Source: Armatimonadota bacterium
GTDB lineage: Bacteria > Armatimonadota > Chthonomonadetes > Chthonomonadales > Chthonomonadaceae
DNA length: 64,000 nucleotides
Direction: 5' to 3'
Assembly (NCBI GenBank): GCA_028871815.1
Contig: JAGWMJ010000010.1
Location: forward strand, 62,001 to 126,000
Shown here: one piece after another, positions 1 through 52,624 of the stretch
Numbering within the stretch: position 1 is the first letter of the stretch
Layout of the letters: every line of letters starts with the position of its first letter
Program-made: the position numbers and the translations under genes
Notes under the pieces: model-generated
Seen by the model: only the letters and a program-made list of their open reading frames with translations
Told to the model about the DNA's origin: nothing
The model's database searches: none

Positions 1-243
1 GCAACCATACCAGCCGCATTCATGGACAAGGTTGCAGCGCTGCTCGCCGTTCCGCGCGCCGCCGTTGAGGGCTATCTCCGGATGCCGCCCACGCTGTCGC
101 ATGGCGCGAGCTTCTATGCCAACGAGCCACCAAAAGCCGCCCGAACTGAGTCTTGGACCGAAGCCATCGAAGCGGCGCCGGATATGAGTGTTGAACAGAA
201 GAAGCCGTGGTTGACGGAAGAGATCCTGCCGCAGGATGAATGA
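1..243 (+). CDS. C-terminal part of a probable HTH-type regulator, partial at window edge
   Basis: The frame is open from the first base of the window, so the gene starts upstream. The first internal ATG is at 22. About 80 residues are visible: a helical stretch (AALLAVPRAAVEGYLRMPP) followed by a polar acidic tail. I do not see a diagnostic HTH motif because the N-terminus is missing. The call rests on context: the stop codon overlaps the ATG of the next gene by 8 nt, and that gene begins with an ImmA/IrrE protease domain. Family knowledge says ImmA/IrrE proteases are normally encoded next to the XRE-family repressor they cleave. Alternative: any small accessory protein of the same operon. 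Confidence 0.5.
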   Translation, partial: ATIPAAFMDKVAALLAVPRAAVEGYLRMPPTLSHGASFYANEPPKAARTESWTEAIEAAPDMSVEQKKPWLTEEILPQDE

Positions 244-3200
244 TTGGGCGGCAGCGCGCCGCGATGCGGTCACCTGGCGCCGTGAGTTGGGCCTCGACAG
301 CGCCGGGAACCCAACCTGCATTCCGGGCGCAGCCGCCGTCCATGCTGCACTGACTGCCTCCGGTTTCACAGTGACGCTGCTTCGCCCCGATGACCCGCTG
401 CTTGGCGGCGCCATCGCCGTACTGGACCGCTGCGCCGGCCAAATCTGGATGCGGAGCGATCTGGATGATGAACGTAGGCTCTTTGTCACGGCGCATGAGC
501 TGGGCCACTACCGGCTCCATCCGGACTACTCCGGTGGTGAGTCGAGCGCGGTGGCCAATGAAGAGGCATGGGGCGACGACCTCTTCGACGAGGCAGTTGG
601 GTACAGCCCGGTAGAACGGAACGAGAACGAAGCAAACGTCTTCGCGGCGGAGTTTCTTATGCCGGCGCAAGTACTGCAGCATCTGTTTTATGATCAGGGA
701 TGGACGGCCACACAGATCGCCGCGCACCTGGGTGTTGGGTACGAGAGACTCCTGCGCCGGATGCCACACGCCCTCCTGCTGCCAGATGTGGAAAAGTCGC
801 CGGCAGTTGACACGCAGCCAGGCAGCCTGCAACTGGATGCCGAGCAGCAAAGGGCCGCATGGCTTGAGACCGGACCGGCTCTGGTTGACGCCGGCCCAGG
901 AACCGGCAAAACCAGAGTGCTCACAGCGCGAATAACGTGGCTGATGGAGCACCAACACATCCAGCCGCATGAGATACTCGCGCTCACGTTCACCAACCGC
1001 GCGGCCAACGAAATGCGCACGCGGATCACCCGGGGTACCGGCGCAAAAGGCGAGCGCGTATGGATCGGCACCTTCCACAGCTTTGCGCTCGATCTACTTC
1101 GGAAGGAGGGTGCGGGCGTTGGTGTGGCTGCGCGCCCGGCCATAGCCGATACCGTGGACGCAGTTGCAATGCTGCTGGCGGAGCGGGACCGCCTTCAGCT
1201 AAGGACGTCCTCCGGTGAGCCTGCCTCGGCGCGTTGGCTGGCCGGAGGTCTGCAGGCCATCTCGCGCGCTTGCAACGCCCTCAAGTCGCCCGACAGCATC
1301 ACGGCTGCGGCGATTGGTCGCAGCGATGTAGCCGAAGTAACACGATTGTGGAGCGCGTTGACGACGCTGATGGAGGAGCGATCGATGCTCTTCCTGGGTG
1401 AGCTCGTGGCGCGGGCTGTCCACCTACTGCAGAAGGAGCCGGCCGTTCTACGGCGGCAGCAGGCGATGTACCACCATCTGCTGGTAGACGAATATCAGGA
1501 TGTGAACCAGGCCAGCGCTGAAATGGTTCGATTGATGGCAGGTGGTGGCAGCGGACTCTGGGTAGTCGGCGATGCGCGCCAGACAATCTGCCGATGGAAT
1601 GGCTCCGACCCCCACACGGTCTCCAATTTCCGCGCCGCATGGCCGAACGCAAGCGTGGTTTCGCTTCGCGCCAACTATCGGGCGGCGCCGCCGCTGGTCC
1701 GCCTGGTGAGCGGTGTGGCGTCGCACGAGGCTCTGCCGGGGCTGCGCGGCATGGGTTTTTCAATCGACGCCGCTACCCAACAATCGGGCGACCTCTGGAA
1801 CGCCGTGCGGCAGGAGGCGCCGGGGAACGAGATCACGATTGTTCGCGCTGAGGATGACGAGGCGGAAGCCGACTTTGTGGCTGAGCAGTGCAGTTCATCT
1901 CACCGCAAAGGACGCCCATGGCGCGATCACGCGGTTCTTTGCCGCACTCACGCTCAAGCGGCATCCATGGCCGATCGGCTCCGCCGGCGCGACGTTCCAG
2001 TGCTTGCCATGGGGATGATGTGGCAGCGTCCGGAGGTGCGCGACATGATCGCTCTTCTCAAAGCCGGCGGCGGCGACACGCTCGCATCTCGGAGGCTTTC
2101 GACCATCCCGGCGCTCTCCAGCGAAGCCGGACGCATTGCCGACGATCCATTCACAGCAAACGCAACAGCGGAAGAGCCGGGCGACACGTCATCGGCGTGG
2201 TCGCTACTGGCCGGCAGCCTCTTTGAGCGCACCGACTATCTCCGCAGCGCCGGCATTGCCGATAATGCCGAGGCAGCATGCCACCGGCTAAGCATATACG
2301 GTGTGCTGCAGCGTGCATGGCGACCTGCCGCCGCGTCGACGCGCCAACACAGGTTGATGACGCCTTGCGAGCTCGGCGACCGGCTTCTGCTTGAGATCGA
2401 GTGTCATGCCAACCGCGCTTCGGCGCCGCCTCCGGGACTCTATGAGATGGACGCGGTCAGCCTGCTGACTATCCACAGCTCGAAAGGCCTGGAGTTTCCC
2501 GTGGTATTCCTGCCGCAGCTTGCCGGCGAGCACTTTGAATGGCAGGCCGGCGCCGACATCGATAGCGACGACGCGGAGGACACGTCCAATGAGGCCTCCC
2601 TGGATGCTGAGTCACTCTTCTTTGTAGGACTTTCCAGGGCTCGGGATTCGCTGTTCCTCAGCTGGGGCGAGCTGAGCGACGGCCGGCCATGCCAGCCGGT
2701 GCGATTCCTGCAAGCCATTACCGGTGCGGCGCCCGCACAGTCGCGAAGGCGGGTCAATAGTCGGAACGAGCCGCCGACCGGACGTCCGGTGTTGCAAGGC
2801 TGCTCGCTGAGCAAGGTTACCGACTTTCAGTGGTGTCCGCGTTTGACCCTGTACAGAGAAGCGGGTGATACAGTCGGTGACACCACCAACCTCGTTCTAT
2901 TTCGTTTCGTTCAAACGGCCGTGGAGGCCGTAGGCGGCGCGTGCGCCGGCCGAGCCGCGGCAAATGTGCCGGATGTGGCCGAGCAAGCCATGAAGCAGTT
3001 CGCTGCGGACGCTGCTCCCGAGGAGCGCGCAGACTTGCAGCGGCTGTTGCCGCGCGCACTCGGCTTCTGCGCGGCAATCGCCGACGCCTGTGCAAGTAGG
3101 CATGTGGATCCAAGGCCGCGTGGATTGGTGCTTAGTACGAGGTGGGGTGAGATCCGCTCCAAACCCAATCTCGTGTGCAGCGAACGCGGAGATCTGGTTT

Positions 3201-3490
3201 TCGAGCGGCTGGTATGGCGCAGCCTTCGGGCCAGCGATGCCCGAGATGAGCGGTGCCTGATCTGGTCCGCATCACTGCGTCAGAAAGCCAAACGGCCGCC
3301 GCGCGTGTTTGTCCGCAGCCTCACAACGCGGGACGTGACCGAGGTTCAAAACACCAGACAGAACGAGGATCTTTGCGTCCGGACCGCGGAGGGAACTTTG
3401 CGCGAAATGGCCTCGAAGCAGTATCGGCCCGCACCCGCAGAGTACAAGTGCAGCGTGTGCCCAATGTTCCTTCTCTGCCCCCATAACTGA
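236..3490 (+). CDS. ImmA/IrrE metallopeptidase - UvrD/Rep-type helicase - Fe-S nuclease-like fusion
   Basis: A 1084-residue, three-module protein. Residues ~30-150 are an ImmA/IrrE domain with zinc motif HELGH (87-91) and the family signature NEANVFAAEFLMP (131-143). Residues ~200-840 are a superfamily I helicase: Walker A GPGTGKT (220-226), DEYQD (418-422), the GDARQTICRW motif, a TIHSSKGLEFPVVFLP motif, and FVGLSRARDSL as motif VI. The C-terminal ~220 residues keep the AddB/Cas4-type iron-sulfur cysteines: C867, then C1072-x2-C1075-x5-C1081. I cannot find the usual GxxD...ExK nuclease residues, so that domain may only bind DNA. The start overlaps the upstream gene (ATGAATGA), implying translational coupling. 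Inferred role: DNA-damage or foreign-DNA processing tied to cleavage of the neighbouring regulator. Confidence 0.85.
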   Translation: MNDWAAARRDAVTWRRELGLDSAGNPTCIPGAAAVHAALTASGFTVTLLRPDDPLLGGAIAVLDRCAGQIWMRSDLDDERRLFVTAHELGHYRLHPDYSGGESSAVANEEAWGDDLFDEAVGYSPVERNENEANVFAAEFLMPAQVLQHLFYDQGWTATQIAAHLGVGYERLLRRMPHALLLPDVEKSPAVDTQPGSLQLDAEQQRAAWLETGPALVDAGPGTGKTRVLTARITWLMEHQHIQPHEILALTFTNRAANEMRTRITRGTGAKGERVWIGTFHSFALDLLRKEGAGVGVAARPAIADTVDAVAMLLAERDRLQLRTSSGEPASARWLAGGLQAISRACNALKSPDSITAAAIGRSDVAEVTRLWSALTTLMEERSMLFLGELVARAVHLLQKEPAVLRRQQAMYHHLLVDEYQDVNQASAEMVRLMAGGGSGLWVVGDARQTICRWNGSDPHTVSNFRAAWPNASVVSLRANYRAAPPLVRLVSGVASHEALPGLRGMGFSIDAATQQSGDLWNAVRQEAPGNEITIVRAEDDEAEADFVAEQCSSSHRKGRPWRDHAVLCRTHAQAASMADRLRRRDVPVLAMGMMWQRPEVRDMIALLKAGGGDTLASRRLSTIPALSSEAGRIADDPFTANATAEEPGDTSSAWSLLAGSLFERTDYLRSAGIADNAEAACHRLSIYGVLQRAWRPAAASTRQHRLMTPCELGDRLLLEIECHANRASAPPPGLYEMDAVSLLTIHSSKGLEFPVVFLPQLAGEHFEWQAGADIDSDDAEDTSNEASLDAESLFFVGLSRARDSLFLSWGELSDGRPCQPVRFLQAITGAAPAQSRRRVNSRNEPPTGRPVLQGCSLSKVTDFQWCPRLTLYREAGDTVGDTTNLVLFRFVQTAVEAVGGACAGRAAANVPDVAEQAMKQFAADAAPEERADLQRLLPRALGFCAAIADACASRHVDPRPRGLVLSTRWGEIRSKPNLVCSERGDLVFERLVWRSLRASDARDERCLIWSASLRQKAKRPPRVFVRSLTTRDVTEVQNTRQNEDLCVRTAEGTLREMASKQYRPAPAEYKCSVCPMFLLCPHN

Positions 3491-51876: not shown

Positions 51877-52524
51877 TTACGCCGCCTTTCGCAGCTTGAG
51901 CGGCGGTCGCTCATTCAGTGACCCTATCAGGGCGCCGGCCTCGCGCTGCGTCAGCTCCGTGATTGCCGGCTTACCGAACAACTCCTTTGCTTTGGCCGTG
52001 GCATCGAGGCCCTGCTTCGCAGATAGACTCGAGATGGCGTTGCATTGCGCCGGTGTGGCGGCGGCATCCGGATCGATAACCGCGCGCTGGCGGCGAGGTG
52101 CGACGCCGCTGGTTTCCAACGTGAGGCTGCCGCGCCGCGTGCCGCGGGCCGGCGTCGCCACCGGCTGCGACTGCTCGAGCTCGAGCTCGCCAAACTCCTC
52201 AAAGACGGCCACGCCGATGTTCACGGCATCACGCAGTGCGCGGGCCTTCGCTCGCGTCTCGGCCATCCGGATCAGGCACGTCTTCATGGCCGCTGCCACA
52301 TTGCCGGGTGCAGCGTCCCCCAGGCCGGTGTAGATTCGCTCAGCGCCGTCTGCCGTCAGCACTACCGTAGCCGCACAGATCGCCACGTTCTGGTTGCCCT
52401 CACATGGTGTCTGTATCAACTCCGTCCGAATGGATGTAAGTCCAGCTGCGTGAGCCAGATCGAGAAGGCCGCCATAGAGTACGTAGGCCTTGCCCTGCCG
52501 CTCAATAATCATCTCTCTGTTCAT
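51877..52524 (-). CDS. DdrA/Rad52-like single-strand annealing candidate
   Basis: 215 residues behind an excellent GGAGGTGA site. The first ~125 residues resemble the Rad52-superfamily/DdrA core: strand-rich start (GKAYVLYGGLLDLAHAAGL), AAATVVLTADGAERIYTG, and helix MAETRAKARALRDAVNIG, the hallmark of these annealing proteins. After a linker, residues ~160-208 form a small helical tail (TPAQCNAISSLSAKQGLDAT, ITELTQREAGALIGSL) also seen in phage annealing proteins. Expected to bind ssDNA ends. Not in a phage context here. Confidence 0.55.
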   Translation of the reverse strand: MNREMIIERQGKAYVLYGGLLDLAHAAGLTSIRTELIQTPCEGNQNVAICAATVVLTADGAERIYTGLGDAAPGNVAAAMKTCLIRMAETRAKARALRDAVNIGVAVFEEFGELELEQSQPVATPARGTRRGSLTLETSGVAPRRQRAVIDPDAAATPAQCNAISSLSAKQGLDATAKAKELFGKPAITELTQREAGALIGSLNERPPLKLRKAA

Positions 52525-52624
52525 CGGTCACCTCCGAGCCGGTTGTTGTCGCCCTCTTGTCTGCCTACTAGCCGCGTGTCTCAAAAACCGGAAGCGGTCA
52601 TAAGACACAACCCACCGACTGATT

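Follow-up and report, generated by a model that had tools for sequence, protein, structure and literature searches.

The window, 64,000 nucleotides (nt) of Armatimonadota contig JAGWMJ010000010.1 (G000:C10:62001-126000; G000 is the source genome, called own genome below), begins within a small regulator gene that runs into a gene for a protein of 1084 amino acids (aa). This large product, termed the fusion here, had been described in an earlier note, written from the letters alone, as one polypeptide joining an ImmA/IrrE protease to a UvrD helicase, and the Pfam matches and intact motifs bear this out (Table 1). The protease part combines PF06114, HExxH and a downstream ExEAN-type glutamate, as expected for the M78 family; the family profile matches CapP and IrrE in this part, which would cleave an XRE-type helix-turn-helix (HTH) partner. 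The helicase part matches UvrD-helicase at residues 201-466 (9e-57) and UvrD_C at 476-609 (7e-27), with GDARQ at 445-449 and an equally intact motif VI; Walker A, DExxQD and motifs Ia-VI, diagnostic of superfamily 1A UvrD/Rep helicases, are present in the window protein and in most members. An assembly join of two genes, considered in the note as a possible artefact, is excluded because the same uninterrupted protease-motor-Fe-S architecture recurs in about 40 independent genomes.

On the parent contig, the gene order is that of a three-gene operon: an extracytoplasmic function (ECF)-type sigma factor gene (SIG), a Cro/CI-HTH regulator gene (XRE) and the fusion gene. The 8-nt overlap between the last two is real, as already noted from the window, and an overlap or near-abutment is also seen in relatives; translational coupling is likely.

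Table 1. Positions of the operon genes, of the domains and motifs of the fusion, and of a predicted promoter with its target gene (window numbering unless a contig is given)
Feature	Position	Strand	Remark
SIG, sigma-factor gene, 256 aa	C10:60839-61609		Directly upstream of XRE, outside the window
Full XRE gene, 210 aa	C10:61611-62243 = L002:15611-16243	+	
3' end of XRE gene (gene 1)	1..243	+	Cut by window start
8-nt overlap ATGAATGA	236..243	+	XRE stop / fusion start
Fusion gene, 1084 aa	236..3490	+	M78 protease, UvrD/AdnA-like motor and Fe-S nuclease-like domain; uninterrupted open reading frame
Peptidase_M78 (ImmA/IrrE) domain, residues 68-175	437..760	+	Pfam PF06114, E 4e-16
HELGH zinc-protease motif, residues 87-91	494..508	+	
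ENEAN, residues 130-134	623..637	+	Conserved ExEAN motif (expected third zinc ligand)
UvrD-type helicase core, residues 201-762	836..2521	+	
Walker A GPGTGKT, residues 220-226	893..913	+	
DEYQD helicase motif, residues 418-422	1487..1501	+	
AdnA/Cas4-like Fe-S domain, residues 826-1084	2711..3487	+	C-terminal 259 residues
Predicted SIG-type promoter CTTCCGGTTTTTGAGACACGCGGCTAGT	52567..52594	-	Sole match in the 64-kb window
Predicted target gene, 215 aa	51877..52524	-	43 nt after the promoter; PHROG 22961 phage-family match

SIG matches Sigma70_r4_2 (2e-10), as do 17/17 members of its family, and across residues 73-247 a profile built from 17 relatives matches ECF sigma factors (1e-11); beside this profile match, Pfam gave no region-2 match for SIG. 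Upstream extension, proposed in the note as a way to look for an XRE HTH, completed gene 1 to a protein with an N-terminal helical region, a Cro/CI HTH at about residues 95-157 and a conserved C-terminal tail. Searched alone against Pfam, XRE had no significant match, and its family profile matched SinR weakly. The AlphaFold model (pLDDT 86) aligns with the HTH domains of SinR, CapH and Deinococcus DdrO with probabilities up to 0.99; the Foldseek E-values are weak, since the match spans only some 60 residues, in the HTH region (about 95 and above).

The operon also occurs in expanded form. One locus (L250 in G011) carries the SIG-XRE pair in tandem duplicate and an extra shortened XRE before the fusion, and another near a contig start (L269 in G014) has one SIG-XRE pair and an extra shortened XRE.

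Co-inheritance of the fusion and XRE

A search of 61 nearby genomes gave XRE relatives in 23, with the order SIG-XRE-fusion in most of the loci read. Across the phylum, XRE is present in 40 of 291 Armatimonadota genomes, and all of these (40/40) also encode the M78 fusion (Fisher 5e-46), so that the conserved HTH partner anticipated in the note exists. An intact fusion for which no XRE was found occurs in 3 of the 291 genomes, all fragmented or incomplete metagenome-assembled genomes (MAGs). The association does not depend on adjacency: the fusion lies on a different contig from SIG-XRE in four genomes (G003, G005, G007 and G015) and kilobases away in two (G042 and G066). At least four Chloroflexota genomes with a fusion also have SIG-XRE, adjacent in one and elsewhere in three. 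Two genomes whose M78 gene is not fused were also checked and gave no SIG-XRE.

The system is old and mainly vertically inherited, because the tree of the 40 fusions follows family labels (8 changes versus 23.9 after shuffling). The distribution is vertical and of the housekeeping kind, not that of a defence island, and no pattern of co-occurrence with such islands, which the note had proposed to score, was seen. PADLOC recognized no described defence system as a whole, its matches being limited to generic helicase models (GajB, for example). In a viral collection, the 80 best ImmA loci carry generic ImmA and none of them is fused; there was one UvrD-only match.

In a Thermoleophilia MAG (L169:4605-6306), a SIG-like gene, an XRE-like gene and a stand-alone M78 protease gene share one operon without a helicase, possibly a simpler variant of the module from a different phylum.

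Decay of the protease motif in the absence of XRE

The HExxH motif is intact in every XRE-partnered copy of the fusion. Where XRE is absent, it is degraded to HHFAH (G081 and G082) or HAIGH (G034), with loss of the catalytic glutamate, and a second fusion copy in G078 likewise reads HAEAH. All four proteins keep the helicase motifs and the cysteines. The converse also occurs: in L247:5178-7577 and L251:4530-6287 the protease motif, XRE and SIG are kept and helicase motifs II, III, V or VI have decayed. Since HExxH decays without XRE and is kept with XRE even when the helicase decays, protease and XRE stand or fall together at the level of sequence, as a protease-substrate pair predicts. The architecture, the conserved module, the co-inheritance with XRE and the loss of the protease motif without it were all computed in this analysis.

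Loss of catalytic residues in the Fe-S domain

The note had also proposed an AddB/Cas4-like tail with four cysteines. Fold and cysteines (867, 1072, 1075 and 1081, invariant in complete members) were upheld; the catalytic D-x-K of such nucleases is gone. A profile of the C-terminal domain from 16 relatives has mycobacterial AdnA as its best match (E 1.4e-8), the AlphaFold model of the domain (pLDDT 81) matches the Cas4-family protein ACE1, AdnA, Dna2 and AddB, and Pfam PDDEXK_1 also matches this region in relatives. The domain therefore has the RecB-like fold and four cysteines of AdnA/AddB nucleases. The catalytic column was set through a HMMER alignment, using the PDB chain AdnA(D934A), which differs from wild type exactly at the D of VVVDLKTGK. 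In the window fusion, R991 stands at the position of AdnA D934 and V993 at the K of DLK, and D-x-K is gone in every complete fusion examined. The nuclease is probably dead because the catalytic Asp and Lys are replaced, and an active nuclease was rejected as a candidate function on the same grounds. With D-x-K missing and the cysteines kept, the domain is more likely to bind DNA or to have a structural role than to cut.

A promoter-like signature upstream of SIG and its predicted regulon

Among hexamers upstream of SIG, TTTCCG is the most over-represented, present at 19 of 33 loci versus 1.5 expected from 220 control gene starts. It lies on the coding strand (opposite strand 3/33). When the loci are anchored on TTTCCG, an ungapped AGT follows 25 nt downstream, and some 10 nt beyond it lies the probable start codon; in the own genome, CTTCCGCATTTGCCGATGGTGGCGCAGT stands immediately before the SIG ATG. 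This geometry suggests an autoregulated ECF promoter giving a leaderless message. Two other candidates for the element were discarded: inverted repeats upstream of SIG, as for a palindromic XRE operator, were not common to the loci, and the 11-mer GCTTCCGCATT taken alone had mostly intragenic sites in the own genome. In one place (L368 reverse strand, G000:C10:60697-60724) the signature occurs a second time upstream of SIG, in divergent orientation, and faces a 93-aa protein.

Genus g16 is represented by three genomes, in which the signature TTTCCGGTT-N16-AGT matches 16, 15 and 9 times; the reversed control gives no match there. Across the phylum, there were 86 matches versus 11 for the control in genomes with XRE, and 69 versus 86 in the others (p 5e-13); leaving out g16, the XRE genomes still gave 46 versus 11. 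The own-genome variant, YTTCCGSNTT-N15-AGT, had 16 matches (including SIG itself by construction) versus 1.

In all three g16 species, the signature lies shortly before addB-addA, ligA, thpR-recA-corA and an ADP-ribosylglycohydrolase gene; in one or two of them it precedes cas9-cas1, cas3-cse1, and genes for an sbcD-like phosphoesterase, an HSDR_N protein, a cytosine methylase and an SNase. In the own genome, addB is preceded by a site at 59 nt, and a DUF3426-like target is common to this genome and g16 (40% identity, 3e-15). Nuclease-residue loss, the restriction of the signature to system genomes and the presence of repair and CRISPR genes behind it are, like the above counts, computed results. 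Together with the sigma gene and the vertical distribution, they go beyond the earlier note, lying outside the window or needing alignments.

Type II cas9-cas1 and type I-E cas3-cse1 operons were seen behind a SIG-type promoter at L344, L342 (G023) and L326 (G022); the cas9 reading frame is interrupted in G022.

A putative DNA-damage alarm and alternative explanations

The SIG signature also marks DNA-repair and CRISPR genes, and the system therefore looks like an undescribed bacterial DNA-damage alarm. We consider it probable that the operon encodes such an alarm, with motor, M78 protease, XRE, SIG and regulon as one circuit. The UvrD/AdnA-like motor with its putatively nuclease-dead Fe-S domain would engage broken or single-stranded DNA (ssDNA), and this engagement would activate the M78 protease on the same polypeptide. 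The activated protease would then cleave XRE, an anti-sigma factor or repressor whose loss would free SIG, and SIG would transcribe its own operon as well as DNA-repair, CRISPR and accessory genes from TTTCCGGTT-N16-AGT promoters a short way ahead of the start codon. For the narrower proposal that the motor acts in cis as the damage sensor, so that moving or stalling on DNA ends or ssDNA lets M78 cut an HTH anti-sigma and the ECF sigma factor drive a joint repair and CRISPR regulon, we see even chances. The idea in the note that the protease releases a regulon is thus strengthened by two independent lines, HExxH loss where XRE is missing and the signature at repair and CRISPR genes, with cleavage and sensing as its conjectural steps. 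As to the choice it had left between defence and repair, the predicted targets include both.

Several observations weigh against this reading. The degenerate helicase motifs in the few members that retain protease and XRE (L247, L251) indicate that motor activity is not always required. No signature precedes recA in the own genome, and no addB site was found in G004, G021 and G024; of further genomes checked, only G001 has one. Regulon counts are small outside one genus, about three of the own-genome matches are intragenic, and the predicted targets include several without a repair role (PBP1A-like, CorA, repeat proteins). Control of unlinked fusion genes by the signature was rejected, as a site lies upstream in only 1 of 8. 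Finally, the own genome has LexA, as do 267 of the 291 genomes; the classical SOS response therefore coexists with the system, and replacement of SOS is ruled out. Replacement of AddAB by the fusion is likewise ruled out by the presence of a separate AddBA-like pair.

Among the alternatives, XRE might itself be a DNA-binding repressor with the bipartite signature as its operator, SIG being only a target or co-regulator. XRE does have a canonical Cro/CI HTH, and the cleaved partner is a DNA-binding repressor in PprI-DdrO and CapP-CapH (PMC10904395). We nevertheless regard this explanation as unlikely, given that the signature is asymmetric and one-stranded, with -35/-10-like spacing just before the start codon, whereas operators of dimeric XRE proteins are usually palindromic.

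It is quite improbable that the fusion is mainly an AdnA/UvrD-like repair helicase, whose level is set by protease and XRE without any global damage response. The helicase-FeS copies that persist with a dead protease in G081, G082, G078 and G034 argue that the motor is useful without the protease. Such a role does not explain the opposite case of L247 and L251, with protease and XRE kept as helicase motifs decay, or the position of the SIG signature ahead of numerous unlinked repair genes.

An anti-phage or mobile-element defence switch, with the motor sensing invading DNA and inducing CRISPR and abortive functions, would fit the signature at cas9-cas1, cas3-cse1 and the HSDR_N protein and cytosine methylase genes, and CapP-CapH controls CBASS (cyclic-oligonucleotide-based anti-phage signalling system). 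Inheritance along families in chromosomal housekeeping surroundings, the lack of a fusion at any of the 80 best ImmA loci of viruses, and the predominance of repair genes among the named targets common to all three g16 species make this explanation rather improbable, too. A chance association of unrelated genes in an old operon, for which passive linkage in a vertically inherited module could be cited, is extremely improbable, since co-inheritance holds across separate contigs and in another phylum and protease decay tracks XRE loss.

Relation to known systems

The alarm reading has its closest precedent in PprI/IrrE-DdrO, which shares the M78 protease with a Cro/CI-HTH partner and a repair regulon that does not need LexA cleavage. 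PprI has a C-terminal GAF-like domain where the fusion has its UvrD motor (as Pfam shows) and Fe-S domain, and its circuit works without an ECF sigma factor and on another DNA element. Deinococcus PprI binds ssDNA, which stimulates DdrO cleavage (PMC10904395), and CapP likewise cleaves CapH with ssDNA stimulation, as cited in that paper. CapP-CapH has the M78 protease and an HTH repressor in common with the present system (structures 7t5t and 7t5u are among the matches), and differs in the local control of one defence operon, without helicase, sigma factor or genome-wide regulon. To our knowledge, the signal activating M78 proteases is unclear outside Deinococcus and CapP.

AdnAB and AddAB resemble the fusion in the succession of a motor and a four-Cys nuclease fold, AdnA being the best sequence match and among the top fold matches. 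They differ in that the fusion has the AdnA catalytic Asp/Lys replaced and an N-terminal protease added, next to the separate AddBA-like pair of the own genome. ECF sigma/anti-sigma pairs offer a sigma gene followed by a putative regulator, an apparently autoregulated promoter and, in the proposed model, proteolytic release; here the regulator is a soluble HTH protein instead of a membrane anti-sigma factor, and one polypeptide holds both the protease and a DNA motor. Polyvalent proteins with zincin-like peptidases (PMC5512222) also join a peptidase to DNA-processing domains, helicases included. Unlike the chromosomal, vertically inherited fusion family, they belong to phages and plasmids and contain a different peptidase group. 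No account of the fusion architecture or of the circuit was found in the open-access literature, which is weak evidence of absence.

If the alarm reading is correct, a further DNA-damage response route would exist beside RecA-LexA and PprI-DdrO and parallel to LexA: a sigma-factor-driven response in LexA-bearing bacteria, with CRISPR expression linked to DNA damage within a single regulon. Genetic coupling joins the proposed sensor, protease, substrate and output here, each of which can be mutated, and many Armatimonadota and Chloroflexota genes that lack annotation acquire a testable role.

Small predicted targets

A homologue of the 215-aa target in the window (Table 1), 44% identical, adjoins SIG-XRE in G005, with no signature found upstream of it there. 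Elsewhere in the own genome, three SIG-type promoters lie within 2.2 kb (L373, G000:C1:430000-436000), and at least two of them precede related small proteins. The small predicted targets in L327, L331 and the window (51877-52524) match PHROG 11717, 27776 and 22961; judged by eye only, they resemble ssDNA-annealing proteins.

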